From Terriglobales bacterium (GTDB taxonomy: Bacteria > Acidobacteriota > Terriglobia > Terriglobales > Acidobacteriaceae), in the NCBI GenBank assembly GCA_015655195.1, contig JAATFM010000116.1, forward strand, positions 1 to 37,828: a stretch of 37,828 bases of DNA, given 5' to 3'. The notes under the pieces were generated by a model, which saw nothing but the letters and a program-made list of their open reading frames with translations, did not search any database and was not told the DNA's origin. Within the stretch, counting starts at the first letter, position 1, and each line of letters opens with the position of its first letter. The position numbers and the translations under genes are program-made. This document shows, piece by piece, positions 16,234 to 35,240 of this stretch.

Positions 16234-16992
16234 GTGCCACTATCGAAAGCCCACAACCTCTCGCAAAAATCGGGAGTACTGGTTGCAAGCTGTGCCGAAA
16301 CACAGGTTCAAGGATCCATGGGCTCAGTCGAGAGGATAGTGAGCGTGCTTTGGCTACGCTCCTGTGGAGAAGAGGTGGCGCCTGTGGTTGGAATCAAACG
16401 ATCTGCACGGAGAGTGGATGAGAAGCAGGATGGGAAGGGTTGGGCTTCCGACACCAGTTCGAAGGTAATTCCCTTGAAGGACCCAGGGAAAGCTGGATGG
16501 CGTCAGCAGGCTTTATCCCTCTACGATTCGCTCGGACCGAAGCTTTCGCAATTTCTGCGACGCCTCGGGCTGAATAAAGATGAGATCGACGACGTCATCC
16601 AGGAATCGTTCCTTCGACTCGCGGGACACCTCAAGCAAGGAGCTAATAGCGATGACAACCTGAGTTCATGGGTATACCGGGTTGCACGCAATCTTGCGAT
16701 GGATGTCCATAGATTGAACCGCCGCGAGCATGAGGAAGTTGAATTGGAGTTTGAACCCAAAGAAGAACCCGTTGATCCCAGGGCTAACCCCGAGTGGGTC
16801 TACTTGCAGAAAGAGCAGGCCAAACAATTGAAAGCGGCGATGGCACAACTGACGACACAGCAGTACAACAGTATTCTTTTGCGGACTCAAGGGATGCGCT
16901 ATCGGGAGATCGGCGACCTACTCGGGATAAGTGAGCAGCGCGCGACGCACCTGGTAAAGCGGGCTTTGCAAAGACTCATGGGAGGTTTGTAA
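16234..16992 (+). CDS. ECF-like sigma-70 family RNA polymerase sigma factor
   Basis: Region 2: DEIDDVIQESFLRLAGHL...SSWVYRVARNLAMDVHR; region 4: MAQLTTQQYNSILLRTQGMRYREIGDLLGISEQRATHLVKRALQRL. Start at GTG 16234 with cggag SD-like sequence upstream; a later start is possible. Confidence 0.9.
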   Translation: MPLSKAHNLSQKSGVLVASCAETQVQGSMGSVERIVSVLWLRSCGEEVAPVVGIKRSARRVDEKQDGKGWASDTSSKVIPLKDPGKAGWRQQALSLYDSLGPKLSQFLRRLGLNKDEIDDVIQESFLRLAGHLKQGANSDDNLSSWVYRVARNLAMDVHRLNRREHEEVELEFEPKEEPVDPRANPEWVYLQKEQAKQLKAAMAQLTTQQYNSILLRTQGMRYREIGDLLGISEQRATHLVKRALQRLMGGL

Positions 16993-16997
16993 GTTCC

Positions 16998-18764
16998 TTG
17001 ATTCGTGAATTGCACAGTTTTCTTCGCGGACATCTCTCCGATGGCGAGCTCAGCCTTCTGATCACTGGCGGCCTGCCCTCTCGCAAGCAGGCAAGGGTTG
17101 AACGGCATCTTGCGGCGTGCAGTGCTTGTCGTGCACGATGCGATCGCTTCGAAGATGTGTTTTCGCAGGTAAAGGCATACCACATACGCCGCACCATGGC
17201 AGACAGGTTGGATGATCGCGCGCGTCGCGCGCGGCTGGTAGCGCAGCTATACCAGATGCCGGACGATGTGCCAGACACGGAGGTACAACGCCCTGAGAAG
17301 GCAAGAGCGCAGTATGGGGGCCTGCTCCCAATGAATCCGATACTTGTCAGTGGGTTTTTTCTTGCAGTAGCGTCCATCGCCTGTGTGTTTTTGTGGATGC
17401 AGCAATCGAAGCCCGATATTACTTCGAATACTCTGCTTGTCCGAGCGGAGGCCTGGGACACGCCCGCAGCGCACGAGAGTGCGCCCAGAGTGATTCGCCA
17501 GATCGTGAAGATTGCGACTCGGGATAAAACCCTGAAACATACGATCTATCGAGACGTGCAAGGTAAGCGGAAGGCCAAAGAAGAACGCCTGACAGGAGGC
17601 GAAGACTTGCTGAGGCGGAGACTTGCGGAAGCTTATGTCTCCTGGGATGCGCCGCTTTCTGCAACCAGCTATCAGGACTGGCATGATGGACAGCGGGTGC
17701 GCGCAGACCAGATTCAACGTTCTCCTGGTCATTTATTGGTTCTCACCACAACCACGCCGAATGGGGTAGTAGCTGCACAATCGCTGACTGTGCGCGATAC
17801 CGATTTTCACCCGGTTCGTCGTACTGTCTTGTTTCGCGATAAGGAAACGGTGGAGATCGCAGAATTGGATTATTCAGTTCTGCCCTGGACTCCGGCAGCC
17901 AGCAGCCTGTTTCAGTCGGAGGAAGAGATGCGCGCGGACGGTCTGACAAGACCGCAGCCTCCGCGCGGTCCGATTCCCCCACCGCTTCTTACCGAAGAGC
18001 AACTGGACGAAGCGGAACTCAGCACAAGGCTGACACTGAACCGTCTCCATGCCGACACCGGCGAACAGATCGAGGTGGCTCGTGGGTCTCACGGTGTTGA
18101 GGTCCGCGGGATCACGGATACCAAGGAACGGAAGCATGAGCTGGAAGCGGAGTTGCACATGCTTCCTCATGTGGCAGCGTCCATCACGAGCATTGAGGAG
18201 ATGAAAGCAAAACCCTCCGAACCGGGCGAGTTGTCCGGTGTGCAGGTAATGGAAATGCAGACACGGGCGACTCCGCTCGAAACCTACTATCTCGCGCATG
18301 GGCGCAACGTCGCTCCGCTTGGCGATCTTGCGCAGCGGTTATTCAATAGTGCCTTTGCGATCAATCTGGAGAGCAGGGCAATCGATGATCTTCAGCAGAG
18401 GTTCTCGGAACGTGATGGTATCTCGTCAGTTGCTTCAGCTACTCTTACCGACCTTCTGTTCACGCATAAGCACAAGCTGCTGGCCTCAATAGCGGACGAG
18501 GAGCAGTTGCTCGCCAAAGCTCAGATTGAAGTTTCCCATTCAAAGCAAGATACATCGACGCACGACGCAGGCGTGCCACTGGCAACCCGGGCAGAGCAGA
18601 ACCTTGCACTTACCAGGGAACTGGCGCTGGGCAAGGGCGGAAGCAGCCGATCTGCGGAAGCGATCGCCTCGGAACTCGCTGCATCCATGGACGAGCTAAA
18701 CCTCCAGGCACATGCCATACAGGTGGCTCCGCAGGATTCCACGAAGCTGGACAAAAGGAAGTAA
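16998..18764 (+). CDS. Zinc-finger (HxxxCxxC) single-TM protein with large C-terminal region; putative anti-sigma factor
   Basis: TTG start 5 nt after the sigma gene; N-terminal ARVERHLAACSACRARCDRF zf-HC2-like motif; TM segment ILVSGFFLAVASIACVFLWM; long predicted periplasmic part. Confidence 0.8.
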   Translation: MIRELHSFLRGHLSDGELSLLITGGLPSRKQARVERHLAACSACRARCDRFEDVFSQVKAYHIRRTMADRLDDRARRARLVAQLYQMPDDVPDTEVQRPEKARAQYGGLLPMNPILVSGFFLAVASIACVFLWMQQSKPDITSNTLLVRAEAWDTPAAHESAPRVIRQIVKIATRDKTLKHTIYRDVQGKRKAKEERLTGGEDLLRRRLAEAYVSWDAPLSATSYQDWHDGQRVRADQIQRSPGHLLVLTTTTPNGVVAAQSLTVRDTDFHPVRRTVLFRDKETVEIAELDYSVLPWTPAASSLFQSEEEMRADGLTRPQPPRGPIPPPLLTEEQLDEAELSTRLTLNRLHADTGEQIEVARGSHGVEVRGITDTKERKHELEAELHMLPHVAASITSIEEMKAKPSEPGELSGVQVMEMQTRATPLETYYLAHGRNVAPLGDLAQRLFNSAFAINLESRAIDDLQQRFSERDGISSVASATLTDLLFTHKHKLLASIADEEQLLAKAQIEVSHSKQDTSTHDAGVPLATRAEQNLALTRELALGKGGSSRSAEAIASELAASMDELNLQAHAIQVAPQDSTKLDKRK

Positions 18765-18781
18765 AGGGTTTTTAGGAGACC

Positions 18782-21700
18782 ATGTCGCTTAATTCGAATC
18801 CATCTTCGTCTATTTGTTTGACGCGCGTTGATGCTCGCCACCAGTGCTCAGTGTTGTGGGTTCTTGTACTGTTGTCGGTTGCTTCCTCGTCGATGGCGTT
18901 TCTGTCCGGTTGCGGCAGCAGCGTGGCGACGAAGGCCGGAGCCATCTCCGTGACTTATCCGAGCGGAGTGACGGCGGACCAGTTCCCGGTCTTGAGCACC
19001 GTCGCAGTTTCGATGGCTCCACTAAACGAGAAAGTCAACGCCGGCGTGGACTGGACACTGACGTGCGGAGGGAGCCCTCTGGCTCCGCCGGTGTCCGGCG
19101 TGACCTCGGTCGGGTGTGGCACGTTGCTACCCGCTCATACGGCAAGCGGTGTCCCTGCGACCTACACCGCTCCCGCGCTGATTCCCGTGGGAACCACGGT
19201 GACGATCACCGCGGCGGTGACAAGCGATCCATCGCAGACCTCGACTCTTGCTCTTACGATTGTGAATTTGCCGGTCGTCGTGGCGCTTACATCTCCGCCA
19301 GCATCGATGGCCGTGAGTGCGATGGCGCACCTCAGCGCTTCCCTGACCAACGACACCAACGAAGCCGGGGCCACATGGAAGGTAAGCTGCGGTTCGAGCG
19401 ACTGCGGCTCGTTTAATCCGATGCAAACCGGGGACAATGCTCAAACGACATATACGGCACCGGCGAAAGTTCCGGCGGGCGGCACGGTAACAATCACCGC
19501 GACCTCTGCCGCCAATACCGCCGACTCAGCCAGCGCGACAATTTCGATCCTGCCCATTGCAGTGAGAGTGTCACCGGTAACGTACAACGTGGCGGCATCG
19601 GGAACTGCGAATTTTACTGCAACAATCACAAACGATGTGAAGAACTCGGGCGTGACATGGAGCTGCAGCCCGGCCGATTGCGGCGGGAGCGGGAGTTTCA
19701 TTCCAGCAACCACTTCGAGCGGAACAGCGACAACCTATACGGCCCCGGCTGCTGCGCCTGCGAGCGCGGTGGTGACTATCATTGCCACTTCGGTGACCGA
19801 TGGAACGACCAGCGGCTCTGCAACTGCGACGATTAGTGCATCGCCGGTCATCAGCGTTGCGATGACTCGCACAGTACCGACATCGTTGGCCGAAAGCAAG
19901 ACCGCCACGCTGGCTGCGACCGTTACCGGCGATTCGACGAACGCGGGCGTGGACTGGACCGCGACATGCGGGAGCAGCGCGTCAGGAGCGTGCGGCACCT
20001 TCAATCCGGGAACCACGAACAGCGGATCGACGACTACCTATACGGCGCCCACTTCACTGCCTCCGACAAATCCGGTGACCATCACCGCTACCTCACGTGC
20101 CTACGACCTCAACCCTGCACTTGTCGCAAACGCAGCTACCGCGGCGACAACCATCACGGCACCGGCCACGATTGCGTTTATTGAGCAGCCGCCCACGACC
20201 ATTGCGACTACCGGGCAGGCGGTCGTCAGCGCGTCGGTGACCAACGACGCAACTCCCAGCGGCGTTACCTGGTCGGTGCAGTGTAGCAATACTGCGGCGG
20301 GCGCCTGCGGGTATGTAACTCCTTATCAAACGGCGAACGGAGTAACGTCCACCTATGTAGCGCCGCCTACGGTTCCGGGTGTGCCGGTACAAATTCGTGC
20401 CAGCTCGACAGCGTTTCCGGCTATCTCGATTCTGTCGACTGCGATAACGATTACACAGTCGACATTGCATTCGATCGCCTTTGTCCCCTTTGCCCCATCG
20501 CAGCTATTGCAGGGGACAACAGTGACGCTCAACGCTGCGGTCACAAACGATCCATCCCACGCGGGTGTTGACTGGACAGTCTGTGGGAGCGGGTGCGGGT
20601 TCTTCACGATTGTGCCGGCACGACCGGCGATACCGGCAGTTCCTCCGAGTCCAGGAAATCCGGGAAGCCCGTATATCCCTCCTATGCCGGCGGTGACCGC
20701 GACCAGCGCTCAAGGCTGGCCGAATGGGGTTCCCGTCACATATACCGCACCCTCTGTGGCACCGGAGAATGGAACCGTACTTATCACCGCGGCGGCTACG
20801 GCGGACCGGCTGAATAACGTAGTCACTCCGGCGACCGCAGTCTCGACCACTACGATCACCTCGGAGGCGATGGGGCCTGACCTGAACGGAGTTGTGCAGG
20901 CTGGAACGCAACCCGTTGTCGGAGCATCGATCTACCTCTATGCGGCTGGCACAAGCGGTTACGCCTCGGCGTCGATACTGATCTCCTCGCCGAACGCAAC
21001 AAGCACTATCGCGACAGACTCGACGGGGAGCTTTAAGATTCCGGCGGGCTATGCCTGCCCGCAACTCACCAGCCAGGTTTATCTGGTCGCGGTCGGCGGA
21101 CAGGTCGGATTGAGCACTCCGAATTCGAATCTGGCATTGATGACTGCCCTCGGCGCGTGCAGCAATCTCAGCTCTTCTCCGGTCGTCGTCAACGAAGTCA
21201 CGACCGTAGCCTCCGCCTCCGCTCTGGCTCCATTCTCGGCCGACAACGCGCTGACCGGCAACAGCAGCTATCTGAACATCGGTTCGAGCAGCACCAACGC
21301 GACAACCGGACTCGTGAATGCCTTTGCGGCCGTAAACAACCTCGTGAATATCGGAACCGGCCGGCCCTTGTACAACACTCTCGCCGGCAACGCCGCAGTG
21401 CCGTATGTCGAGATCAATACCCTGGCAGACGTGCTTAATGCGTGTGTGATTAGCTCGGGAGGATCTGCGGGAGACGGCTCTTCCTGCGGAAACCTCTTCG
21501 CCGATGCCAATCCTCTTCAAGGGGCTGACACTGCGGCTGCACCGACAGACACCCTTCAAGCTGTATTCGATCTAGTGAAGCCTCCCGATCATTCAATAAC
21601 TACATCACCCCAACTTACCGCGATCTACGGGGTGGCCCATGCGTCGTCACCCTATCAACCGATCCTGACGAGCGCGCCCCACGACTGGTCGATTGCGCTG

Positions 21701-22747
21701 AACTATACCACCGGTGGTGGCGTAGGTGGTGCGGGGTCCGGATCTTCCGCGTTCGCGCTGGACGGCGCGGGAAACCTCTGGATCACGAACGCGAATACGA
21801 ACAGCGTCAGCGAATGGAGCGCTTTGGGCGCTCCCATTTCTCCTGCGGTATTGAGCGGTACTGCGGGCGGATTCATGCCCGCGGGCCTGAATGCTCCCGG
21901 GCCAATAGCCGTCGATGCCAACGGTTACGTCTGGATTGCAAACGGCAACGGAAGCATGGCAGAGCTTGACGGTACCGCCACGCCGGTCAACGGAAGCCCC
22001 TTCCTTGGTGGCGGTCTGGCAACGCCAGCCGGCATGGCCATCGATCAGACCGGCAGCATCTGGGTAACGAACAGCGGATCGCCAGGCAACATTGCGAAGT
22101 TCAACAGCGGTGGAATCGCGCTATCTCCGGCCAACGGATACACGAGCGGAGTGGCGAACCCGCTCGCCATCACTATCGACGGATCGGGCAATGTGTGGAT
22201 TCAGGATGCGAACGAGCAGACGGATACCTACGGAATCACGGAACTGAACGGTGCAAGTGGCACGCCGCTTATACCCTCGTCGGGAAGCAATCCTGTCGGG
22301 GTAGCCGGCCAGCGCCAGATGGCAGCGGACGGTTCAGGGAACATCTGGGTGGCGATTCACTGCGGTATCCAGTCTGTAATACCCCGCTCCACCGATCTCG
22401 GAGTTCTTGACAGCACGATCAACCAGAGCCTACAGACTATCGGGAATCCGAGTGCAGTAGCGATTGACGGAGCCAACAGGGCATGGGTAGCCGGTGCTGG
22501 CGGATCGAACTGTACCACCCAGGGCACTGTGCCGCCGAGCGTGGTGCTGCCCGATGCAGCGAATGGTTACGCCCTTGTAGACCAGAGTCTGTCGAACGGT
22601 CCCATGTTCCTGGCCGTCGACGGTTCCGGAAATCTATGGGTCCTATTGAACAACAACACAGTGACGGAGTTTGTGGGAGTGGCGGCTCCAGCGGTAACCC
22701 CGCTTGCATCCGCTGTGAAGAACAACAAGCTCGGAGCGAAGCCGTAA
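18782..22747 (+). CDS. Large lipoprotein with tandem Ig-like repeats and C-terminal NHL/beta-propeller-like module
   Basis: Lipobox-like LSGCG; six approx. 100-aa repeats ending in TTYTAPxxxPxGxxVTITATS; C-terminal DGAGNLWITNANTNSVSEW / DANGYVWIANGNG / DGSGNLWVLLNN repeats. Confidence 0.88.
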   Translation: MSLNSNPSSSICLTRVDARHQCSVLWVLVLLSVASSSMAFLSGCGSSVATKAGAISVTYPSGVTADQFPVLSTVAVSMAPLNEKVNAGVDWTLTCGGSPLAPPVSGVTSVGCGTLLPAHTASGVPATYTAPALIPVGTTVTITAAVTSDPSQTSTLALTIVNLPVVVALTSPPASMAVSAMAHLSASLTNDTNEAGATWKVSCGSSDCGSFNPMQTGDNAQTTYTAPAKVPAGGTVTITATSAANTADSASATISILPIAVRVSPVTYNVAASGTANFTATITNDVKNSGVTWSCSPADCGGSGSFIPATTSSGTATTYTAPAAAPASAVVTIIATSVTDGTTSGSATATISASPVISVAMTRTVPTSLAESKTATLAATVTGDSTNAGVDWTATCGSSASGACGTFNPGTTNSGSTTTYTAPTSLPPTNPVTITATSRAYDLNPALVANAATAATTITAPATIAFIEQPPTTIATTGQAVVSASVTNDATPSGVTWSVQCSNTAAGACGYVTPYQTANGVTSTYVAPPTVPGVPVQIRASSTAFPAISILSTAITITQSTLHSIAFVPFAPSQLLQGTTVTLNAAVTNDPSHAGVDWTVCGSGCGFFTIVPARPAIPAVPPSPGNPGSPYIPPMPAVTATSAQGWPNGVPVTYTAPSVAPENGTVLITAAATADRLNNVVTPATAVSTTTITSEAMGPDLNGVVQAGTQPVVGASIYLYAAGTSGYASASILISSPNATSTIATDSTGSFKIPAGYACPQLTSQVYLVAVGGQVGLSTPNSNLALMTALGACSNLSSSPVVVNEVTTVASASALAPFSADNALTGNSSYLNIGSSSTNATTGLVNAFAAVNNLVNIGTGRPLYNTLAGNAAVPYVEINTLADVLNACVISSGGSAGDGSSCGNLFADANPLQGADTAAAPTDTLQAVFDLVKPPDHSITTSPQLTAIYGVAHASSPYQPILTSAPHDWSIALNYTTGGGVGGAGSGSSAFALDGAGNLWITNANTNSVSEWSALGAPISPAVLSGTAGGFMPAGLNAPGPIAVDANGYVWIANGNGSMAELDGTATPVNGSPFLGGGLATPAGMAIDQTGSIWVTNSGSPGNIAKFNSGGIALSPANGYTSGVANPLAITIDGSGNVWIQDANEQTDTYGITELNGASGTPLIPSSGSNPVGVAGQRQMAADGSGNIWVAIHCGIQSVIPRSTDLGVLDSTINQSLQTIGNPSAVAIDGANRAWVAGAGGSNCTTQGTVPPSVVLPDAANGYALVDQSLSNGPMFLAVDGSGNLWVLLNNNTVTEFVGVAAPAVTPLASAVKNNKLGAKP

Positions 22748-23667
22748 TGCGACCGAAGAAGGATCGAATGACAGGACTTGAGAAGGCCATGAGGATCAGA
22801 AACGACATCGCAATATCGGACTCGCGCCGGATCGTGTTCCGTACGGAAACCGGGAAGGTCTCCTTCCTACGGCTTCTTTCAGGCACGAGCCAGAGGTTCG
22901 TCCGCACATTTGTTCTTTGTTTTTCCGCAGCGGTGTCCCTGGCCTTTTCCGGATGCGGCGCAACTTCGGTGAAGCCGGATGTTGGCTCGATCACGGTCAC
23001 GGACATCAATGGCGTTTCGCAGCCCGCCATCAAGTCGCTAACGGTTGGTGGCGGAACGTATCTTGACGTCGCGCTTGCGAACGACAAGGATCTCTTAGGA
23101 GCGGACTGGACGGTGAGTTGCGGCAGTGCGCTGCCTCCTGGGACTCCACTGCCGCCGGGTCAGACGATCGATACCTCCTGCGGCTACTTCACCCCTATTC
23201 ACACCGCGAGTGCTCCCGTCCCTGCCTATGCCCAAAATGCGGATGGCATTGTGACTTATTACACTGCCCCAGCCGCGCCACCCAAGGCTGGAACTGTCAC
23301 TTTATACGCAAGTTCTTCGATCGATCATTCGCGATTCTCGGCCCTCACGTTAGTCGTCGAGGGGCAACCCATTTCCGTTGCCATCGTGGCTTCGACACCG
23401 CCGCCTTTCAACCTTCCACTCAGTGAAACGATGTCGCTCACCGGCACGCTGAGCAACGACTACACGGTTGGCGGAGGAAGCATCAGTTGGTCTCTTTCGT
23501 GCCAGTCGAGCGACTGCGGCTCTCTGAGCGCAACAAAGACCGCTAACGGAACAGCGGTTACTTATACGGCCCCAGCTACTGTGCCGACGGGGAACACTGT
23601 CACGGTTACCGCAACGTCTGTCACGGACCCGACTGTATCGAACAGCATCATCATCACGATTACTTAA
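22747..23667 (+). CDS. Lipoprotein with two Ig-like TYTAP repeats
   Basis: ATG at 22747 overlaps the preceding TAA (TAATG); signal/lipobox FVLCFSAAVSLAFSGCG; repeats WTVSCG...YYTAPAAPPKAGTVTLYASS and WSLSCQSSDCGS...VTYTAPATVPTGNTVTVTATS. Confidence 0.85.
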   Translation: MRPKKDRMTGLEKAMRIRNDIAISDSRRIVFRTETGKVSFLRLLSGTSQRFVRTFVLCFSAAVSLAFSGCGATSVKPDVGSITVTDINGVSQPAIKSLTVGGGTYLDVALANDKDLLGADWTVSCGSALPPGTPLPPGQTIDTSCGYFTPIHTASAPVPAYAQNADGIVTYYTAPAAPPKAGTVTLYASSSIDHSRFSALTLVVEGQPISVAIVASTPPPFNLPLSETMSLTGTLSNDYTVGGGSISWSLSCQSSDCGSLSATKTANGTAVTYTAPATVPTGNTVTVTATSVTDPTVSNSIIITIT

Positions 23668-23800: not shown

Positions 23801-25648
23801 ATGAGCAGAAAAACCTTTGTAGTCCTTCTGATGGCTATTAGCCTCGTGGGTGCTCAGGCGCAGAACTCGGTGAATCAGGCTCAAGCGAAGCACAGTCGGG
23901 TCAAGCCAAAGACCGAGGAACAAGTGCTCCTCGAACAACTGAGCGAAAAGCTCCAGACCCTTGACCGGGTGAGCGACAAGGTTGACGGTCTCGAACAGCA
24001 GGTCCAGGACCTGAAGCGTCAACTGCAGGAATCGAACAAGACTGCTGAAGCGGCGAAGGCGGAAGCGGCCGAGACCAGGAAAGAACTGGAGAATGCGCGG
24101 CAAATCGTCGGCCACAACGATGAGCAGTTCGCCACCCTGCAGAGTGCAGTGTCGGACCTGAAGTCTACGTCGACTTCGATTGTCGAGACGGTGCAGACTC
24201 AGCAAAAAGAACAGCATGAGCTGGAGCATCCCGATTCGCTGCACTTCAAGGGAATCGAATTAAGGCCGGGCGGCTTCCTTGCCGCAGAGACGGTGGACCG
24301 CCAGCGCGGCATCGGTGGCGACGTGAATACGCAGTTTTCCGGCATTCCGTTTGCCGGCCAGACTGCGGGTGTGCTCTCCGAGTTCAACGCCAGCGGCCGG
24401 CAGTCGCGGGTTTCTCTGCTTGCGGAAGGCAAGCTGTCCAAGTCCACTGTGCGCGGCTACTATGAAGCGGACTTCCTTTCCGCCGGCACGACCTCCAACG
24501 ACAACCAATCGAACAGCTACACGCTGCGCCAGCGGCAGGTCTGGGCGCAGGCTGCGCTCAACAGCGGCTGGACACTAACAGGCGGTCAGATGTGGTCGCT
24601 TGCCACCGAGTACAAACATGGCCTTGAGAACAATGCGGAGGCCATACCGCTCACCATCGATGCGCAGTACAACGTCGGCTTCACCTGGGAGCGGCAATAC
24701 GGTTTCCGCGTAACCAAGAGCCTCGGCTCCAAACTCTGGGTTGGCGGCGCGGTTGAAGAGGCGCAGACCCTCAATCTCGGCGGACATAACTTGCCGACCG
24801 TTGTTTACCAGCAGGCAGGCAATGGAAGCGGTCTCTACAACTCGGCAGCGAACTACAGCTTTAACTACGCTCCCGATCTGGTTGCCAAAATCGCCTACGA
24901 GCCGGGCTTCGGGCATTACGAGATCTTCGGTGTTGGACGCTTCTTCCGCGCTCGCGCATTTCCGAACGCGCAGTTGGCCAGCGGGGCTTCGGCTCTCGGC
25001 GCCTTCACCACGAAGGCCGCGGGCGGCGGCGTAGGCGCGAATGCGCGCGTTCCTCTGTTTGCAAAGCGACTGGACCTTGGCGCACACATTCTGGTCGGCG
25101 ACGGCATTGGCCGTTACAGCACGACGACTCTGCCGGATGCGACGGCGCACCCCGATGGTTCGCTTGAACTCCTTGCAGGTGGCTCGGTCTTAGGCAGCGC
25201 GGAGTGGCATACGACACACCGTCTCGATCTCTATGGCTATTATGGCGGCGAGTACGTGAAGCGGGCTTTCTATCCCAACGGCCTCTTTGTCACAACTCCT
25301 GGACCAACCTATGGCCAGCCGATCCTCGTCGGCTATGGCGCTCCGAACAACGTTGTGACCGGATGCTACACCGAAGTTCTGCCTGTTACCTCACCGAACG
25401 GCGGCGGCTATGTTCCCGGTAGCGCATTGAACTGTGCCGCCGACAACCGCAACATTCAGGAAGGGACCGTTGGCTACTGGTTCCGCTTCTACAAAGGCCC
25501 TCGCGGGACCTTCCAGCAGGGAATCCAGTACTCCTATGCGGAACGGCACACCTGGCAGGGCATCGGCGATCCGCTGACCGGCCTCGGCGGTTCGCCCAAA
25601 GCTATCGACAACATGTGGTTCACTTCGTTCCGCTACTACCTGCCCTAA
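23801..25648 (+). CDS. Outer-membrane porin-like protein with N-terminal coiled coil (DcaP-like architecture)
   Basis: ATG 23801 with aaggagagg SD; signal peptide MSRKTFVVLLMAISLVGAQAQ; coiled coil LSEKLQTLDRVSDKVDGLEQQVQDLKRQLQ; then alternating beta-barrel-like sequence ending FTSFRYYLP. Confidence 0.82.
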   Translation: MSRKTFVVLLMAISLVGAQAQNSVNQAQAKHSRVKPKTEEQVLLEQLSEKLQTLDRVSDKVDGLEQQVQDLKRQLQESNKTAEAAKAEAAETRKELENARQIVGHNDEQFATLQSAVSDLKSTSTSIVETVQTQQKEQHELEHPDSLHFKGIELRPGGFLAAETVDRQRGIGGDVNTQFSGIPFAGQTAGVLSEFNASGRQSRVSLLAEGKLSKSTVRGYYEADFLSAGTTSNDNQSNSYTLRQRQVWAQAALNSGWTLTGGQMWSLATEYKHGLENNAEAIPLTIDAQYNVGFTWERQYGFRVTKSLGSKLWVGGAVEEAQTLNLGGHNLPTVVYQQAGNGSGLYNSAANYSFNYAPDLVAKIAYEPGFGHYEIFGVGRFFRARAFPNAQLASGASALGAFTTKAAGGGVGANARVPLFAKRLDLGAHILVGDGIGRYSTTTLPDATAHPDGSLELLAGGSVLGSAEWHTTHRLDLYGYYGGEYVKRAFYPNGLFVTTPGPTYGQPILVGYGAPNNVVTGCYTEVLPVTSPNGGGYVPGSALNCAADNRNIQEGTVGYWFRFYKGPRGTFQQGIQYSYAERHTWQGIGDPLTGLGGSPKAIDNMWFTSFRYYLP

Positions 25649-25698: not shown

Positions 25699-28600
25699 AT
25701 GCTTCGATTTTTCGCTCGACTGCTGATCACGGCGCTGGGATTGATTGCGCTTGGCGGCACAGTCGGCTTTGCACAGAGCGGCCAGATCTCAGGGCGTGTC
25801 ACGGACCAGCAGGGAGCGGTCATTCCGGATGCTGCGGTTCAGATCGTCAACCAGGACAGAAATTTCAAGCGGGACACTACAACCAATAACCAAGGAACCT
25901 ATTCCGCGTCGTATCTGCCGGCGGGCAAGTATGAAGTGAACGTCAAGAAGGAAGGGTTCAGCAGTGGGAACAGGGTCGTTCAACTGGCAGTAGGACAGGC
26001 ACTCGTTCTCGATATTCAAATGACCGTTGCGTCGACCAACACCGATGTCACGGTCGAGGCCGAGATGTCCAATCAGATCGAACTTGGTACGGCCTCTCTC
26101 TCCACCACCATGTCCAATGAAGAGGTTGCAGCCTACGGCCTGAATGGCCGTAATTTCTCGCAGTTGATAACCATGGCGCCAGGTGTAAGCAACCAGACCA
26201 ACCAGGACGAAGCCAAAGTCGGTGTTGCCGGCAGCGCCAAATTCAGCGTGAACGGCGGGCGCGTCGAATACAACACCTTTGAGGTTGATGGCAGCGACGT
26301 GCTGAACACGAGCATCAACGCCAGCCGCGGCCAGGGCGAGCCGCTGATGGTCTATCCCAGCATCGATGCGATCCAGGAGATGAAGGTTCTGACCGGAGAC
26401 TATAGCGCTCTTTACGGAAAGAGCGCTTCGGGCAGTGTGCTGGTCACGACCAAATCAGGCGGACCTCAGTTTCATGGCAATCTCTACGGCTTCGTCCGCA
26501 ACGAGATGTTCAACGCCCGCAATTACTTCGATCCGATTTTCACGGGCACCAACGGACAGAGTGAGAAACGAACACCTCTCTATCGAAGACAGGATTACGG
26601 TGGGACTATTGGCGGCCCACTCTATATTCCTGGGAAGTACAACACGAAGAAGGACAAGACCTTCTTTTTCTGGTCCGAAGAACTGCGCCTGGAAGAGACG
26701 CCCGTGGACTACAACCAGGCGGTGCCAACCATGGCTGAAAGGAGCGGGGATTTCAGCGATGTCTGCCCAGTCTCCGTACCGGGCAGTAGCACAAATAGCA
26801 ATTTGGACATTACACAGTATCCGGACTGTCCGCGCGTTCCGGCTGCCAATGTCGTTGCAGGTTCCGCATATAACGCAGGGCGAACCGTAAGTACTGGATA
26901 CATCAGCAAAGCGGTCTTGGATACCGGCATTATTCCGGAACCCAATTCGGTTTTCGGATGCGATACCACGAACCCATCTACCCAACCACGCTGCTATCTT
27001 GCAGCAGTTTCGCCTCCGACCTATTGGCGCGAGGAACTCTTCCGTATCGATCATGTTCTGACGCCCAACGAACAGGTGGACTTTCGCTATATCCACGATG
27101 CCTGGGACACGACCACGCTGGCGCCGCAGTGGGGTGTTGTGCAGAACTCGTTTCCCACGGTCGAGAACCGGCTCTTCGGTCCCGGACTCGATCTGGTGGC
27201 GAGTCTTGCTTCGGTCCTGCCGCACAGCGTGTTGAACCGGTTCACGCTCAGTTATGCCGTCGAGCACATCACGTTGACTCCGCAACCTGGCCCCGGTGTT
27301 ACGTCGCTCTCGCGGCCCACGGTTCTCGATAACCCCTCGTCCGTTCTTGGCAATGCTGTAGGTGGCACGGCCTGCGGCATTGCGACTGGGCCTACTCCGA
27401 CAAGTGGACAACCGGCGCAACAGGTTACGGAATGCCCAATGGGATATATTTTCGCCAACGGCTTTGGCGGGAACAAACCGGGCGGCCTGCCGCTGATGCC
27501 GGGCCTCGTCTTCCAGGGCACGAATGGCGCCTACGGTGGCCACGGCTTTGCGGCGGATACCGGCTACGCGCCGTGGAATCAAGCCAACCCCACGTACTCC
27601 ATTCGAGATGATCTCAGCAAAACCTGGGGACGGCACACTATTCAGGCCGGCTTTGAAGCAACCTATGCTCAGCAGAACGAGTTGAGCGCGGTGAGCGGAG
27701 CCAATTCAGGCGACCTGCAGGGACTACTCACATTCAGCAATCAGGAGTCGAAGTACACGTCCGGCAATGCCTTTGCGGATTTCCTCGCCGGACCGGGGCT
27801 TTTATCGCAGGCCCAGGTGAACAATGACGCCAACCCCAATGACTATTACTCGCGAACCGCCATCAAGAGCTACACCCAGGATAGTGGGCAGGCAAAATAC
27901 TATAACCGTTACAAAACGGCTGATATTTATCTCCAGGACGACTTCCGCGTAAACAGCCGTTTCACGCTGAACCTCGGCTTGCGTGCAAGTTTGTTCGGGG
28001 CCTGGTACAACCCCAGGAATACGGCATACAACTGGAGGCCGGAAGCCTTCGATAAATCCATCGGCGGCTCTATCGATGTGGATAACAACAACGGATATCT
28101 GGTGAACAAGATAGCCGGCACGCCTGTTCCGCTGAATCTTTCCAAGCTCGATCCCTCTATCACTAATGGCCTGGTGCAATGCGGCCAAAACGGTGTGCCG
28201 AATAGCTGCATGTCGAGCAGCGTCTTTCATCCCGGTCCACGCTTCGGATTTTCCTGGGACCCGTTTGGAAACGGAAAGACGGCGATTCGCGGCGGCTATG
28301 GCCTTTTCTGGGAGCATGGGACCGGCTACGAAGCCAACGTGGGCTCCCTCATCGGCAGTGCGCCGCTGGTTCTCAGCGAAACCCAGACCGATCCTGGCGG
28401 TCCGGTGAAGCAGGGAACAACACAGGTCAATGGCAGCTATAACACCATCGGGTATTCCTGCCAGGAAGGAGCTACTCAATGCGGCAGCGCGAGCACGATG
28501 GGCAGCACGACCTATCCCTTGAATGTCACCTCGATTCCTACCAAGGCTACTTATCCCTATACCCAGCAATGGAGCGTCAGCGTGCAACACGAGATTCAGA

Positions 28601-29877
28601 AGAACCTGATCGCGCAGGTCGCCTATGTGGGAACCAAGGGAACTCACCTGACCGCGGTGCGCGATCTCAACCAGTTATCACCGTTCGCCCCAGGCTTAAA
28701 TCCCTTTTCGCCTGGGCAGCCGATCACATCGTCGGTGTGCAACGACGCCGTGGTCGGGGACTATTTCCCTGTGTCGGGAACGAACCCACCGGGAACAAGG
28801 GTGCCTGGAATCGGACCGAGTTCGCCCGGCTGGACCAATATGATCGTGGCCTGCACAGGCAACCCGGGATTCGCCTCCTACATAAACAATGAATACGTGC
28901 TGTTGGGAACCAGCGCCGATACAGTCCGGCTTTATCCGGGATTCAGCAACATCATCTCGGTCGAAAACATCGCTAATTCCTCGTATCACGCTCTGCAGGG
29001 CACGCTGCGCGAGGTTACAGGGCCTCTGACGATCGGTGTGGCCTATACCTACAGCCATTCCATCGATGATTCGTCCGACCGATCCAGTGCCAACTTCACG
29101 AACTCCCTTGACATCCGCACCAACCGCGGAAGCTCGGATTTCGACCAGCGCCATATGCTCAACGTCAACTATGTCTACAGCCTTCCGCTGATTCGCTGGA
29201 TCGACGGCTTTGCGGACCTCCTGGGATCTGACGACTCCGATTCGGGGTCGCCTTCGCGCGCCAACTCCGGCCGCCAGCTTCGCAACGCCCTCTTTGATAA
29301 CTGGCAGCTTGCCGGCATTACCACATACCAAACGGGTACGCCGTTCAGCATCATCAACGGCGGCTCCGGAGACGGGACAGGCCCTTCGGACAACGCGGGC
29401 GTCGGAGACGGTCTGGGCGTGGGATCTTATCCCGACGTGATTGGAAGCCCGCATAGCATCAAGCCTTATGTCTCGAGTTCGTCAAACGGTTCCACTATCG
29501 GGCCTCTCCTTGGCAGTCCCGGAGCTTTCGTTGCGCCGCAGGGCCTCACCTTCGGCAATGCCGGTCGCAACTTTATGAACAATCCCACACGCATTAATTT
29601 CAATGTCTCGTTGCTGAAGCACTTCAAGGCGTTTCACGAAAAAAGCGACGTCGAGTTTAGGGCAGAAGCATTCAACGTATTCAACCACACCCAGTTTCGT
29701 GTTTACGATCCGAGCCATCCCGGTAATACCGGCAACAACGTGATCAATTGCTACGGAGACATCACGGCGCAATATTCGGCCGGGGCGTCGAGTTGTCTTG
29801 CCGGCAATTCCTTCCTGCATCCGGTAGACGCGCACGACCCGCGCATTCTGCAGTTTGCACTCAAGCTGGCTTTCTAG
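25699..29877 (+). CDS. TonB-dependent receptor with N-terminal carboxypeptidase-regulatory-like domain (Oar-like)
   Basis: Signal peptide MLRFFARLLITALGLIALGGTVGFAQ; GQISGRVTDQQGAVIPDAAVQIVNQDR (CarboxypepD_reg); plug-like LNGRNFSQLITMAPGV...FEVDGSD...SALYGKSASGSVLVTTKSG; large barrel. Confidence 0.93.
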   Translation: MLRFFARLLITALGLIALGGTVGFAQSGQISGRVTDQQGAVIPDAAVQIVNQDRNFKRDTTTNNQGTYSASYLPAGKYEVNVKKEGFSSGNRVVQLAVGQALVLDIQMTVASTNTDVTVEAEMSNQIELGTASLSTTMSNEEVAAYGLNGRNFSQLITMAPGVSNQTNQDEAKVGVAGSAKFSVNGGRVEYNTFEVDGSDVLNTSINASRGQGEPLMVYPSIDAIQEMKVLTGDYSALYGKSASGSVLVTTKSGGPQFHGNLYGFVRNEMFNARNYFDPIFTGTNGQSEKRTPLYRRQDYGGTIGGPLYIPGKYNTKKDKTFFFWSEELRLEETPVDYNQAVPTMAERSGDFSDVCPVSVPGSSTNSNLDITQYPDCPRVPAANVVAGSAYNAGRTVSTGYISKAVLDTGIIPEPNSVFGCDTTNPSTQPRCYLAAVSPPTYWREELFRIDHVLTPNEQVDFRYIHDAWDTTTLAPQWGVVQNSFPTVENRLFGPGLDLVASLASVLPHSVLNRFTLSYAVEHITLTPQPGPGVTSLSRPTVLDNPSSVLGNAVGGTACGIATGPTPTSGQPAQQVTECPMGYIFANGFGGNKPGGLPLMPGLVFQGTNGAYGGHGFAADTGYAPWNQANPTYSIRDDLSKTWGRHTIQAGFEATYAQQNELSAVSGANSGDLQGLLTFSNQESKYTSGNAFADFLAGPGLLSQAQVNNDANPNDYYSRTAIKSYTQDSGQAKYYNRYKTADIYLQDDFRVNSRFTLNLGLRASLFGAWYNPRNTAYNWRPEAFDKSIGGSIDVDNNNGYLVNKIAGTPVPLNLSKLDPSITNGLVQCGQNGVPNSCMSSSVFHPGPRFGFSWDPFGNGKTAIRGGYGLFWEHGTGYEANVGSLIGSAPLVLSETQTDPGGPVKQGTTQVNGSYNTIGYSCQEGATQCGSASTMGSTTYPLNVTSIPTKATYPYTQQWSVSVQHEIQKNLIAQVAYVGTKGTHLTAVRDLNQLSPFAPGLNPFSPGQPITSSVCNDAVVGDYFPVSGTNPPGTRVPGIGPSSPGWTNMIVACTGNPGFASYINNEYVLLGTSADTVRLYPGFSNIISVENIANSSYHALQGTLREVTGPLTIGVAYTYSHSIDDSSDRSSANFTNSLDIRTNRGSSDFDQRHMLNVNYVYSLPLIRWIDGFADLLGSDDSDSGSPSRANSGRQLRNALFDNWQLAGITTYQTGTPFSIINGGSGDGTGPSDNAGVGDGLGVGSYPDVIGSPHSIKPYVSSSSNGSTIGPLLGSPGAFVAPQGLTFGNAGRNFMNNPTRINFNVSLLKHFKAFHEKSDVEFRAEAFNVFNHTQFRVYDPSHPGNTGNNVINCYGDITAQYSAGASSCLAGNSFLHPVDAHDPRILQFALKLAF

Positions 29878-29888
29878 GGGAGACAGGA

Positions 29889-31271
29889 ATGATGACGTTT
29901 CTGAAGCAACAGACATTCGTATCGAGAGGACAGGCTCCCCCGACGCGCTTTGCGCCGGCATTGCTTACCGCTGCACTGGCTGCGATGCTGAGCGCTTGTG
30001 GTTCGTCAGCTCATATCCCGGTCGCTACCGCGAGCGGACCGCAGGTATACATGACGCCGGTAGTCGCGGGCGGAGACGCGACTCACGCTACCGCCTCCCT
30101 GGCAACCTATTCCATCGACGATGACAGGAAGACTTTCGTGCAGGCGACCTATTCCTCCAGTGGAGAGCAGGTGAATTATGCGGGCAGCATTGCGCCGTTC
30201 CAGCGTGGTCTCCTGAGTCTTGGAGTTACCAACAGCGATAACTCTGTCACCAAAGTGACCAACGGCTGGGCGTTCGAACTGGCCGATCAGGCCGGGGGAT
30301 TGGTCGCTTTGCAAAACCAGCCGTTTGCTCCGCTGGTTCCCGCCTTGTCATGTCCGGCGATGACGACTCCTGAGACGTTTCTGTTTATCACGCTGCCCGC
30401 TCCGCCAACTACAGGCGCACAGCAACTCCTGCAGTGGAATCCGCAAACCGAAACCGCCTATGGAAGCGTCGACATCGACGCCAGCGGCACAACAGTCACT
30501 CTGAACAATATCAGCCAGCACACCCTGCCTTCGAGCGGTGGAACTGGCGTTCCCTCAGACCCATCCCCGACAAGCGTCACCGGGGCCTGCTCGTCCACCG
30601 TATACGGGAACACCATCAGCATTTCGGCGCAGGTGACAATCACCAATCCCGGAAGCGGACAGAACGTCACGCCGCAGGCACTTCTGGGCATCGGACCGTC
30701 GGGTCTGCTAGTCGAAAACAATGGCATGAATTCGTCTACTATACCGCTCTATGAGAATGCTCTCGGGGCCGGGACCGGGGCCATTGGACTGCCGAAGCCG
30801 TCTGCCGCAGTGAACACAGGCTCTCTTGTGAGCGCGCAGTATCTAGGCTTCTTTTTCGGCACGGGCACAGGTTTTAGCGACTCCAACACGAATTGGTCCA
30901 CTTCGCTGGCATCGTTCGGATTTTCGAGCCCGCCCGCAAGCTGCGCTTCGATTACTCCGCAGACCGACACGATGCTCTACGGCGGAGACTTCACGAACAA
31001 CGACCCCACGTCCTCTACAACCGGCTATGGCAACTGCGATTTCGCTATCGATCTCGGCACGCAGGATGCAGCGAACAACGGTCTCTATCCTGCGGCAACC
31101 GTCTATGTGGGCTCCGGGTTCGGCGCGAATATCACAGGCAAGACCTATAGTTTTCCGGCAGTCGCCATCGCTGGGCAATTGAATGGCAAATACGCCATCT
31201 TCCTGATCGGCACGGACTCGGTAGGTTCCCCAAACCAGGCGTGGGGGATTTATCTCCTGCAATCGAACTGA
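29889..31271 (+). CDS. Lipoprotein of unknown function
   Basis: ATG at 29889, 11 nt after the TonB receptor stop; signal/lipobox LTAALAAMLSACGSS; no recognised domain. Confidence 0.82.
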   Translation: MMTFLKQQTFVSRGQAPPTRFAPALLTAALAAMLSACGSSAHIPVATASGPQVYMTPVVAGGDATHATASLATYSIDDDRKTFVQATYSSSGEQVNYAGSIAPFQRGLLSLGVTNSDNSVTKVTNGWAFELADQAGGLVALQNQPFAPLVPALSCPAMTTPETFLFITLPAPPTTGAQQLLQWNPQTETAYGSVDIDASGTTVTLNNISQHTLPSSGGTGVPSDPSPTSVTGACSSTVYGNTISISAQVTITNPGSGQNVTPQALLGIGPSGLLVENNGMNSSTIPLYENALGAGTGAIGLPKPSAAVNTGSLVSAQYLGFFFGTGTGFSDSNTNWSTSLASFGFSSPPASCASITPQTDTMLYGGDFTNNDPTSSTTGYGNCDFAIDLGTQDAANNGLYPAATVYVGSGFGANITGKTYSFPAVAIAGQLNGKYAIFLIGTDSVGSPNQAWGIYLLQSN

Positions 31272-31391
31272 CGCAAGCGCACGGCGCGCCTGAACGGATG
31301 CCGAGCCAAAAACGGATTGCTTGCACTCATTCCCCCGAGTGCTCGCTCGAAGACAAGCGCAACTGCAACATCAACGAAAGGACGCGGAACC

Positions 31392-34300
31392 GTGAATTCA
31401 TCGATTTTGATTAGAAAAAGGGGCCTTGCGATTCAAGGCTTACCAAAGCTGCGCGGGAACCGCACTGGCGTGGTTGCTGCACTATTCGCAATGTTTCTCC
31501 TTATTGTCGGCTGCGGTGGCAACTCGAAGAGCCCAACGCCGACGCCTACCTTTACCCCGGCTGCGGGCTCTTACTCGTCGGCACAGAATGTGACTGTTGC
31601 CGATAGCAATCAAAGCGCGGTGCTCTACTGCACCACCGATGGCAGCGTACCGACAACTTCCTCCCCGCAGTGCGCAAACCCCATTAAGGTTTCACAGAGT
31701 CAGACTCTTAATGCCATTGCGATTGCGCCGGGCATGAACCCCAGCGCCGTGGCGGCTGCGCAGTACACCATCGGTTCTACTCCGACGACACCCACGGTTA
31801 CCGGCATCGGCCCAGCCACCGGACCAACCTCGGGCGGTACCGCCGTCACCATCATTGGCACCAACTTCACCGGGGCCACCGCGGTCAACTTCGGCACTCT
31901 TCCGGCGACCAGCTACGTGGTCAACTCCGCCAGCAGCATCACGGCGACCTCGCCCGCCGCTGGAGCTGGTGCCGTGAACATCACCGTCGTTACCCCTGCA
32001 GGCACCACCGCGACGAACAACGCGGACCTGTTCACATACACGATTTCTCCGACCCCATCCATCACCAGCATCACGCCCAACTCCGGCCTGGTTGGTTCTT
32101 CCGTTGCTATCCTCGGCAGCAACTTCGGCTCCACGCAGGGCAGCAGCACCGTCAGCTTCAACGGCACGCTCGCCGCTGCCGCTACTACCTGGACCTCTAC
32201 CGGAATCGTCGTCACAGTGCCAATCGGCGCGACCAGCGGCAATGTGGTTGTCACCGTGGGCGGGGTTGCGAGCGTTGGAGTTCCATTCGCCGTCACAATT
32301 CCGGCACCGACCATCAGTCTTATCACTCCGAATACCGGGGGGATTGGCACCTCTGTGACGATCGTTGGCACGAACTTTGGAACAGCAAAAGGTTCCGTGA
32401 GTTTTAACGGTACTCCAGCAACGATCACAAGTTGGGGCGACCAGGCAATTGTGGTGCTTGTGCCATCCGGCCTGAGCGCCGGCGGGGTTCCCGTATTGGT
32501 TACCACAGCCGACAACCAGACGGCTACCACCACCTTTACCGTTGCCGCTCCTGCTCCCACGATCAGCGGCATTACACCTGGTTCCGGTACTGCGGGGACC
32601 ACAGTGACAATCAGCGGTTCTGGATTTGGTTCGTCACAAGGCACCGTTACCTTCGACAATATACCGGCCACGATCAAGGGTTGGTCCGATGGGTCGATCA
32701 GTGTGACGGTTCCTTCGGGATTGACCGCAGGCAGCGTCAATGTGGCCGTCACCACGACCGGCAATCAAACAGCCAACGTATCGTTCACCGTTACCGTCTC
32801 TGGTCCCACCATCAGCAGCATTGATCCAACCTCGGGTACGGCTGGAACCACGGTGACAATTATGGGTTCGGGCTTTGGTTCGACACCGGGCACGGTGTCC
32901 TTCGGCAATACGCAAGCCACTGTTGCAAGTGGGAACTGGGCTGATGGCTCAATTACGACTACGGTTCCTTCCGGCGTGAGCGCGGGTAGTGCCACTGTGA
33001 CCGTAACCACAGCCAACAACCAGACAGCCAGCACATCGTTCACCGTCAGTCCGAGCTTGCCGACGATCAGCGGAATCGTAGTCAGCGGCCCTGCAAGCAG
33101 CGGCGCGCCGATCAGCGCGTCGGTGCAGCTCTATGCCGCGGGAACAACCGGTTACGGCGCGGGCGCGCAGGCGATAGGAGATCCCGTGCAGACCGATTCG
33201 ACGACCGGAGCCTTTTCCGGAATCGCCTATGACTGCTCGACTCTCGTTGCACCGGGTGATCAGTTGTATCTGGAAGCTATCGGCGACAGCTCTCAAGTGG
33301 TTTTCATGGCGGCGCTGGGTTCGTGTGGTGCACTGAACACTTCCGGGACGATAGTCACCGTCAACGAGGTGACGACGATCGCCTCGGCCTACGCGCTCTC
33401 GGCTTTTGCCGACATCGATTCGAAAGGCGGGATCGATGTGGGTGCGCCCGCGACCGGCTCGTCCTGCAATGCTGCTGGTGGATGGAAGAGCACCGGCCCA
33501 TCCACCTGCAATTACATCGGTCTCGCGAACGCCTTTGCGACGGCCAACAACCTGATCGATCTCCCGAGCGGTACTGCCCTCAGCGTCACTCCAGCGTATA
33601 AGTCGAACAACGTAGCAGGCTACAACACCAGCATCGTGCCCCAGGCGCGCATCAATTCGCTGGCGGATGCTCTGTCCTCCTGCGCTAACCCGACCACCGG
33701 CAGCAGTGCCAACTGCGGCAGCCTCTTCGGTGACGCCACGGTTGGCACAAGTGTGCCGGCAGATACGCTCCAGGCTACGCTGAACATTGCGCAGAATCCG
33801 GGCAACAATGCCACGCAAATTGCAAGCCTGGCTGCGGCAAACGCTTCTTTCCCGTCAGCTTTGACATCCACCCAGCTTTCTGCTCTCACGGATTGGGCAT
33901 TGCCCATCATCTATCAGGGGGCGGGGATAGGCAATACCACAACGCAGCCAACCGGCATGGCGGTCGATGGGGCGGGGAATATCTGGATAACCGCCCAAAA
34001 CACTTCCACGCTTCCGACCGGAACAGGAACAGAAACAGGCGGACTGGTGGCGCTGTTCAGCAACCAGGGCGCGCCGATCTCGCCGTCGGCTACCTCGGCG
34101 AGCAGTCCCGGCGGGTATGTGAGTGGCGGCATTCTTAACCCTCAGGCTATCGCCATCGACCAGAACAATTATGCCTGGATCGGCAACTTTGTGCCGCAGG
34201 GCGGCACGGCAGGCAGCATTACCGTGCTCGATAAGAACGGGCATCCGCAGTACGGCACCGACGCGGCTGCTTACACGACCCCGTTACTGATGCTCCCGAA

Positions 34301-35240
34301 TCGATATGGCATCGCCGTAGATGCCGATAACGACGTGTGGATTTCCTCCAATAATGCCGCCGGTTGGAGCAACAATGGCGGGATTACGGTTTGTGGCGGC
34401 GGTACTGGCAGTGGTCCGTATGGCGGCGACATCCTTGGGCTTAAGGTCTCTGGAAATGCCGTAAGCACTAACGGCGTCATAGCGGACTACTTTTCGACGG
34501 ACAATAGCACCTGCCCAACGTTTCTCGCGATCGACCAGAACAGCAACATGTGGACTTTTGACTACGGGAACTTCAACGGGTTGGAAGGCAGTCAATATGA
34601 TGGCCCCGGCCTGGAGTTGTTCCGTACTGCGGACGGTTCTTTGGCCGGAGGCGCATATTTTAATGCGTATCCATTTGACATGGAAAGCAATCTCGTCATC
34701 GACAGTGGAGCATATGGCTGGTCGGTGGAAGCTTTCCAGGGCATCGGGAACTCTTCAGTTCAAGAGGGTGGGACGAGCAAGATGCCTAATTTCAATGGCA
34801 TTACCGATCCGACCGTGATAGGCGTCTTCGGACCTCCCACCCCCTATGACCCAACGGTCTTTAACCCGAGTTCGACTACTGCTTTTCAGAGCTCGGTCGC
34901 AATCGATGGGGCAGGACAGGTATGGGTGGCGGGTGCCAACGGCCCCGAAGCCGGCCTGTTCGCAGTAAACAATGCCAACACTCAGCTTCTGTCACCGGCA
35001 AATGGGTACATCGACAATGACACGACTGGCGCCGAAACAATATACACGGCCTCCGGTAACCCAGTGGTTACGGCCATAGACAACTCGGGCAATGTCTGGG
35101 TCGTGGGTGAGTCCTATAACAAGGCTACAGGCAATAACCAGGGCAATCAGTTAGCGGAGTATGTCGGCATCGGCGTACCTGTCCAAACTCCACTGGTTTC
35201 CGGCCTCGTCAACGGCAACACTCCGGGCACCAAACCTTAA
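31392..35240 (+). CDS. Large lipoprotein: chitobiase-like segment, five IPT/TIG domains, C-terminal NHL-like module
   Basis: GTG start at 31392 (ORF track uses TTG at 31317); lipobox LLIVGCGG; five copies of TIS.I.P.SGT.GT.VTI.GS.FG...G.V.F; C-terminal DGAGNIWITAQN / DADNDVWISSNN / DNSGNVWVVGES repeats. Confidence 0.87.
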   Translation: MNSSILIRKRGLAIQGLPKLRGNRTGVVAALFAMFLLIVGCGGNSKSPTPTPTFTPAAGSYSSAQNVTVADSNQSAVLYCTTDGSVPTTSSPQCANPIKVSQSQTLNAIAIAPGMNPSAVAAAQYTIGSTPTTPTVTGIGPATGPTSGGTAVTIIGTNFTGATAVNFGTLPATSYVVNSASSITATSPAAGAGAVNITVVTPAGTTATNNADLFTYTISPTPSITSITPNSGLVGSSVAILGSNFGSTQGSSTVSFNGTLAAAATTWTSTGIVVTVPIGATSGNVVVTVGGVASVGVPFAVTIPAPTISLITPNTGGIGTSVTIVGTNFGTAKGSVSFNGTPATITSWGDQAIVVLVPSGLSAGGVPVLVTTADNQTATTTFTVAAPAPTISGITPGSGTAGTTVTISGSGFGSSQGTVTFDNIPATIKGWSDGSISVTVPSGLTAGSVNVAVTTTGNQTANVSFTVTVSGPTISSIDPTSGTAGTTVTIMGSGFGSTPGTVSFGNTQATVASGNWADGSITTTVPSGVSAGSATVTVTTANNQTASTSFTVSPSLPTISGIVVSGPASSGAPISASVQLYAAGTTGYGAGAQAIGDPVQTDSTTGAFSGIAYDCSTLVAPGDQLYLEAIGDSSQVVFMAALGSCGALNTSGTIVTVNEVTTIASAYALSAFADIDSKGGIDVGAPATGSSCNAAGGWKSTGPSTCNYIGLANAFATANNLIDLPSGTALSVTPAYKSNNVAGYNTSIVPQARINSLADALSSCANPTTGSSANCGSLFGDATVGTSVPADTLQATLNIAQNPGNNATQIASLAAANASFPSALTSTQLSALTDWALPIIYQGAGIGNTTTQPTGMAVDGAGNIWITAQNTSTLPTGTGTETGGLVALFSNQGAPISPSATSASSPGGYVSGGILNPQAIAIDQNNYAWIGNFVPQGGTAGSITVLDKNGHPQYGTDAAAYTTPLLMLPNRYGIAVDADNDVWISSNNAAGWSNNGGITVCGGGTGSGPYGGDILGLKVSGNAVSTNGVIADYFSTDNSTCPTFLAIDQNSNMWTFDYGNFNGLEGSQYDGPGLELFRTADGSLAGGAYFNAYPFDMESNLVIDSGAYGWSVEAFQGIGNSSVQEGGTSKMPNFNGITDPTVIGVFGPPTPYDPTVFNPSSTTAFQSSVAIDGAGQVWVAGANGPEAGLFAVNNANTQLLSPANGYIDNDTTGAETIYTASGNPVVTAIDNSGNVWVVGESYNKATGNNQGNQLAEYVGIGVPVQTPLVSGLVNGNTPGTKP

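Follow-up and report, generated by a model that had tools for sequence, protein, structure and literature searches.

In the FecIRA and FoxIRA systems, an ECF sigma factor, a single-pass anti-sigma factor of the FecR type and a TonB receptor with an STN domain are encoded together, the regulon is local and apparently autoregulated, and for FoxR regulated proteolysis of the anti-sigma factor has been described (PMC11637429). IutY of Pseudomonas putida, an ECF243 hybrid, unites ECF sigma domain, transmembrane (TM) segment and periplasmic part in a single protein whose gene adjoins a TonB receptor gene, and its proteolytic activation as a sigma/anti-sigma hybrid was shown by experiment (PMC5411451, PMC8999054). 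In RseA/RseB and MucA/MucB, a LolA-fold domain is linked to a membrane anti-sigma factor, and in MucB this domain gates anti-sigma proteolysis by lipid (PMC7400510). Sigma/anti-sigma fusion (IutY; ECF48/52/53) and LolA-fold anti-sigma regulators as separate proteins (RseB, MucB) were thus known beforehand. A LolA-like domain inside an anti-sigma factor linked to Oar-type receptors was not found described in the literature searched, which was covered in part, key ECF classification papers included, and an earlier account is possible.

The DNA analyzed here (the window, 37,828 nt) is the whole contig C163 of a 4.76-Mb source genome (G000), whose closest named relatives are Acidobacteriales MAGs and Acidobacteriaceae strain ZG23-2. 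As in FecIRA and FoxIRA, an ECF sigma factor and a single-pass anti-sigma factor are encoded with a TonB receptor. However, the anti-sigma factor has a zf-HC2, a LolA/RseB-like and a BON-like domain in place of FecR, the receptor has CarboxypepD_reg and no STN domain, and the unit adds giant Ig/TIG lipoproteins, a porin and a hydrolase. Since FecR and STN, two defining features, were not found, the locus was not filed as FecIRA despite a mode of working that resembles cell-surface signalling. Four paralogues in G000 resemble IutY but differ from it in an HxxxCxxC finger, an extra cytoplasmic domain and a LolA-like module, and the window itself has the split form. In RseA/RseB and MucA/MucB the LolA fold is a separate protein and the output is general envelope stress, whereas in the window the fold lies inside the anti-sigma chain and the output would be a surface uptake regulon. 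ECF48/52/53 proteins (e.g., SCO4117) resemble only the fused paralogues, with sigma, zinc finger and TM in one chain, but are actinobacterial, have other extracytoplasmic domains and lack a TonB receptor. An anti-sigma class that spans both membranes and has been reported from Bacteroidota only is likewise tied to the envelope and to surface-locus expression; no such protein was seen in the window. We interpret the window locus as a form of cell-surface signalling in which a sensor of the LolA/RseB type takes the place of FecR and STN.

Gene content and layout

The earlier note had placed eight co-directional genes at 16234-35240, and the ORFs, strand and gaps all matched with starts at lipoboxes or signal peptides. 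The mechanical ORF starts were too far 5' for several genes and were corrected for LP2 (22747), POR (23801), TBDT (25699), LPs (29889) and LP3 (about 31392). The features are as follows.

15822-15853 (quoted at 15824), + strand: ECF-type promoter TGGTTGGGAAAC-N12-CGTTATAA, about 380 nt 5' of SIG
16234-16992, + strand: SIG, ECF sigma factor (Sigma70_r2 2.9e-11, r4_2 1.9e-7, TIGR02937 77 bits)
16998-18764, + strand: ANTI, zf-HC2 anti-sigma factor (Pfam, AF2, Foldseek)
18782-22747, + strand: LP1, giant lipoprotein (lipobox LSGC; orthologues at the same position)
22747-23667, + strand: LP2, lipoprotein (true start 22747, not 22483)
23801-25648, + strand: POR, coiled-coil and porin-like outer-membrane protein (64-82% identity between loci)
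25699-29877, + strand: TBDT, Oar-like TonB-dependent receptor (CarboxypepD_reg, Plug and OMP_b-brl_4 domains)
29889-31271, + strand: LPs, small lipoprotein (lipobox LSAC)
31392 (approximate start)-35240, + strand: LP3, giant lipoprotein (CHB_HEX_C_1, five TIG domains, propeller-like C terminus)
35258-35289, no strand assigned: hairpin of 14 pairs, likely terminator 3' of LP3
35783-35814, + strand: weaker ECF-type promoter site 5' of the exported protein gene (second-best site in the window, 13.8 bits)
35964-37640, + strand: conserved exported protein (at least nine genomes have an orthologue at this locus)
37670-37701, + strand: hairpin followed by TGTTTTT, likely terminator, as read from the sequence
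37795-37828, + strand: start of an exported S15/DLH-type hydrolase gene that continues to C230:1145 (Peptidase_S15 1.4e-7, DLH 7.5e-5; Pfam)

With the corrected starts, the gaps are 5 nt (SIG-ANTI), 17 nt (ANTI-LP1), 133 nt (LP2-POR), 50 nt (POR-TBDT), 11 nt (TBDT-LPs) and about 120 nt (LPs-LP3), and LP1 and LP2 overlap by 1 nt. SIG starts with GTG, as do its counterparts in loci L033-L035, and has an N-terminal extension of about 85 aa that is kept in close relatives. LP1 is built of Ig-like TYTAP repeats, a middle domain and an NHL/propeller-like C terminus (weak NHL/Reg_prop matches); LP2 is 42% identical to the N-terminal repeats of LP1, and LP1, LP2, LPs and LP3 each show a lipobox. The domain search found Sigma r2/r4, zf-HC2, CarboxypepD_reg with Plug and OMP_b-brl_4, five TIG domains and one CHB_HEX_C_1 domain, and the hairpin at 35258 was indeed the strongest terminator-like hairpin. 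Porin identity of POR was unsupported by profile: the domain search gave no Pfam porin match and profile searches gave coiled-coil matches only. A barrel is presumed. The domain search found no STN domain in TBDT, and no SusD family match was found at the locus; with a receptor of the OMP_b-brl_4 type, the locus was therefore not classed as a SusCD system or polysaccharide utilization locus.

The eight-gene block stood, but its end at 35240 did not, since the exported protein and the hydrolase are also part of the locus, as in ZG23-2 and Paracidobacterium. Positions 37688-37828 are identical to the first 141 bases of another contig of the same genome (G000:C230:1-141), and because the contig ends are identical, as in an assembly overlap, C230 continues the window. 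We describe the locus as a block of about ten neighbouring genes. For the exported protein, Pfam and PDB profile searches gave no match and the AF2 model was unusable (pLDDT 38). A PstS-like identity, suspected by eye, was rejected, with an hhalign probability of 1.2% against the genome's own PstS and no Pfam or PDB support.

The anti-sigma factor in split and fused form

ANTI had been named a ZnF-TM protein. Zinc finger and TM part are present, but the name is incomplete, for the AF2 model and Foldseek make ANTI a large anti-sigma factor with a LolA/RseB-like sensor domain. The zf-HC2 domain (aa 18-45; motif HLAACSAC) scored 26.1 bits in Pfam against a cut-off of 22.2, which some orthologues do not reach; as in ZAS proteins, the HxxxCxxC N terminus is encoded next to the sigma gene. 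There follow a TM helix (about aa 114-136), a LolA/RseB-like region (about 143-306), a BON-like region (about 333-404) and a helical region (about 426-573), and Pfam gave no domain in the periplasmic part. An AF2 model built from 21 sequences (pLDDT 80, about 90 in the first domain) consists of the TM helix followed by a half-barrel, a second domain of the order alpha-beta-beta-alpha-beta and a set of four helices. The predicted half-barrel matched solved LolA, RseB and MucB structures: the leading Foldseek matches were LolA structures (probability 1.00, best E 5e-6), with MucB/RseB lower down (probability 0.99), at moderate TM-scores of about 0.3-0.57 normalized to the target and rmsd of 5-9 A. 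By predicted secondary structure and sequence reading, the second domain looks BON-like. Pfam found no FecR domain in ANTI, and neither a FecR nor an STN fold was among the listed Foldseek matches. Across G000, STN was nowhere over the cut-off and FecR had one match, elsewhere in the genome; in the genus sample, 1 of 13 genomes had STN over the cut-off.

The same periplasmic module is found four more times in G000 (C127, C270, C98, C298), at the end of proteins of 955-1016 aa with sigma and membrane anti-sigma part in one ORF. They start with an ECF sigma domain (NCBIfam sigma models, residues about 14-180), followed by the invariant HxxxCxxC finger, the extra cytoplasmic domain and the TM helix. 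This extra domain (about 150 aa, HRPRSLxLxVNGxV..., between finger and TM) had no Pfam match in L022, L024, L054, L104 and L105. An Oar-like receptor is the next gene after each of the four; three of these loci also carry an LPs homologue and a giant NHL/Ig protein, and in the fourth the contig breaks off within the receptor gene. In P. acidisoli, split and fused loci together number seven. LPs lies directly 3' of the receptor in loci with split sigma/anti-sigma (class A) and in most of the fused type.

Outside class A, the gene 3' of the anti-sigma gene, where readable, is an Oar-like receptor in 20 of 21 loci, the exception (L029) matching only in the zinc finger; in remoter relatives the order is again mostly sigma-anti-sigma-receptor. 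The domain search and the loci of relatives bore out the claim that the sigma pair leads an Oar-like CarboxypepD_reg receptor, and showed neither STN nor FecR. Of the proposed "undescribed envelope system," the conserved envelope locus holds, but it is not one of a kind: the trio of sigma factor, large anti-sigma factor and Oar-like receptor turns up repeatedly in Acidobacteriaceae. By their sigma domains, the split and the fused proteins fall into two groups with a long, fully supported branch between them. Since the two forms share the periplasmic domains, one sensor sits on two distinct sigma heads. A single fused clade was also considered for the periplasmic domains; the free tree disagrees and nests class A beside some fused rows, yet the AU test does not reject monophyly (P = 0.065).

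Conservation and promoters

The single-protein search of the genus with ANTI found few relatives, and profiles were required. A profile of the membrane/periplasmic region of ANTI (A1) found 22 named loci, all from Acidobacteriales/Acidobacteriaceae except one MAG record, with 34 of 250 family genomes positive; a wider profile found 45 of 298 genomes of the order, every one in the window's family. The module is patchy, and in the window's own genus only a few out of many genomes carry it, which suggests loss or transfer. The order SIG-ANTI-LP1-LP2-POR-TBDT is identical among the class A loci of Granulicella, Silvibacterium, Paracidobacterium, ZG23-2 and several MAGs, and LPs follows the receptor wherever the flank was fetched. 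Orthologues in other genera keep this order at roughly 35-82% protein identity, highest in porin and receptor; therefore, the genes are real. ZG23-2 and Paracidobacterium continue like the window, with LPs, LP3, exported protein and hydrolase. LP3 is downstream in the window, in ZG23-2 and in one Paracidobacterium locus, and lies directly 5' of SIG in nine other loci, of which eight carry the exported protein gene still farther 5', on the opposite strand; in L037 no such gene was seen. The co-occurrence across relatives that the earlier note had called for was thus found in Acidobacteriaceae, and the gene set is conserved as a group, but LP3 and the exported protein vary in position between genomes.

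The porin family is near-universal (208 of 250 Acidobacteriaceae genomes), but POR belongs to a locus-specific branch of 15 sequences above 950 bits, the next scoring 680. For 13 of the 15, a class A ANTI gene is at most about 8 kb away. One exception (G179) is on a 5.5-kb contig with different neighbours; the other (G168) has SIG-LP1-POR-TBDT-LPs-LP3 without ANTI. In this last locus (L102; G168:C15:84001-104000, positions 5728-19322), the promoter is at 5473, the SIG gene runs to 6501, the ORF of LP1 begins at 6557 and LP2 was not called; this looks like a natural anti-sigma deletion, with expression of the regulon perhaps constitutive.

In the window and five related loci, an A-rich tract plus GGTGGTTGGGAAA-N13-CGTTA lies about 260-410 nt 5' of SIG, with constant spacing within the element across the six loci in poorly conserved surrounding DNA. 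Nine LP3-first loci have the equivalent element GTTGAGAA-N14,15-GTCA 5' of LP3, so that all 15 tested loci carry one or the other form 5' of the first gene. Both patterns were drawn up with the alignments already known; shuffled DNA yielded each strict pattern in 0-1% of trials per locus. With a matrix trained without the window, the SIG promoter ranked first in the window (28.9 bits) and the site 5' of the exported protein second. The same matrix found a 25.2-bit site at the same place in ZG23-2, 5' of the exported protein, and Paracidobacterium sites 5' of LP3 (33.4 bits) and of the hydrolase (14.8 bits). Further ECF-type sites lie 5' of LP3 in L095, 5' of the exported protein in L038 and L049 as in ZG23-2, and 5' of the hydrolase in L038, L039 and L095 (type-B for the exported protein site of L049 and the hydrolase sites of L038 and L039). 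In the whole of G000, the strict pattern had two sites, 5' of SIG and just 3' of the hydrolase on C230. In five genomes other than G000 the type-B pattern had 18 sites against 1 for the reversed control, those of class A loci mostly 5' of LP3; the sites at a distance from the loci resemble chance occurrences. A wide regulon for GTTGAGAA-N14,15-GTCA was rejected, the sites away from the loci being mostly inside genes. From sequence, the regulon thus appears to be local and autoregulated.

Promoter and SIG start are separated by a leader of some 380 nt (15850-16234), which is patchily conserved in the window clade and had no Rfam match to a known structured RNA. The class A motif was searched for 5' of the fused genes and not found. 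About 60-90 nt 5' of several of them (e.g., L051 at about 8470, L105, L025 on C298, L050) is a block resembling AATGTTAAGA-N5-GCGAAT, which is unlike the class A promoter.

Signalling model and competing explanations

The locus is probably a self-contained, autoregulated cell-surface signalling and uptake regulon with a LolA/RseB-type sensor instead of FecR/STN. ANTI, in which the zf-HC2 domain was observed, would hold SIG at the inner membrane by means of this domain, and its LolA/RseB-like, BON-like and helical regions would sense the state of the outer-membrane apparatus. The signal would most likely come from the periplasmic side of the ligand-loaded Oar-like receptor and, by analogy with IutY, FoxR and RseA/MucA, may lead to stepwise cleavage of ANTI. 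Freed SIG could then transcribe from GTTGRGAA-N13-16-[CG]GT[TC], sites of which are present at its own operon, LP3, the exported protein and the hydrolase. Because the products are lipoproteins, an S15/DLH-type enzyme, a porin and a TonB receptor, capture, hydrolysis and uptake of one substrate are suggested: the Ig/TIG/propeller surface lipoproteins may bind a polymer or complex, the exported hydrolase may trim the bound material, and porin and TonB receptor may import the products. In the second arrangement, the same sensor on the other sigma head goes with further Oar-like receptors.

If the LolA/RseB-like domain bound lipid, lipopolysaccharide (LPS) or acyl chains directly, the circuit would report on its own lipoprotein trafficking or on lipid stress, and the receptor would be a mere regulated product. 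The predicted similarity of ANTI to LolA, MucB and RseB, the four lipoproteins encoded in the operon and the description of MucB/RseB as lipid/LPS sensors (PMC7400510) speak for this. However, a TonB receptor is the recurrent neighbour of the sensor in all architectures, even without a giant lipoprotein (e.g., L046, L050, L053, L094), and the regulon looks local and not like a general stress regulon; we consider a sensor of envelope quality unlikely, though deserving of some weight.

The receptor lacks a signalling domain of the known STN kind, and zf-HC2 anti-sigma factors often respond to other cues, which favours an ordinary zf-HC2 pair that answers an unrelated cytoplasmic or envelope cue and drives the outer-membrane operon incidentally, receptor and lipoproteins having no signalling role. 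A large conserved periplasmic sensor strictly linked to one receptor type in many loci argues against such a pair, to which we give little credence. Chance neighbourhood of independent genes could account for the shifting positions of LP3 and the exported protein, but is refuted by the conserved order and the shared promoter element, as well as countered by the locus-specific porin branch, and hardly any likelihood is left to it. Against signalling from the receptor through ANTI counts that ANTI is dispensable in G168, and adjacency of ANTI and receptor genes could reflect co-regulation only.

Acidobacteria are abundant in soils and rich in Oar-like TonB receptors, and for most of these both regulation and substrates are obscure. 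If the receptor-sensing model is true, many such receptors have a sigma circuit of their own, with a sensor unlike FecR/STN, and the promoter motif common to the loci is a ready reporter with which to find the inducing substrate. The presence of one sensor on both a split and a fused sigma head is also a natural experiment on the rewiring of sigma/anti-sigma signalling. More tentatively, there could be a class of trans-envelope signalling, so far in Acidobacteriaceae only, in which the covalently attached LolA/RseB-like sensor monitors an Oar-type receptor or its lipoprotein partners and which is modular on two heads, with five to seven private receptor-linked sigma circuits in one genome. Beyond the strict site just 3' of the hydrolase (L108, G000:C230, positions 1263-1380) comes a perfect inverted repeat of 15 bp, GATTGCGCCAATATC...GATATTGGCGCAATC; an obvious gene was not seen on that strand, and the site perhaps marks a small RNA.
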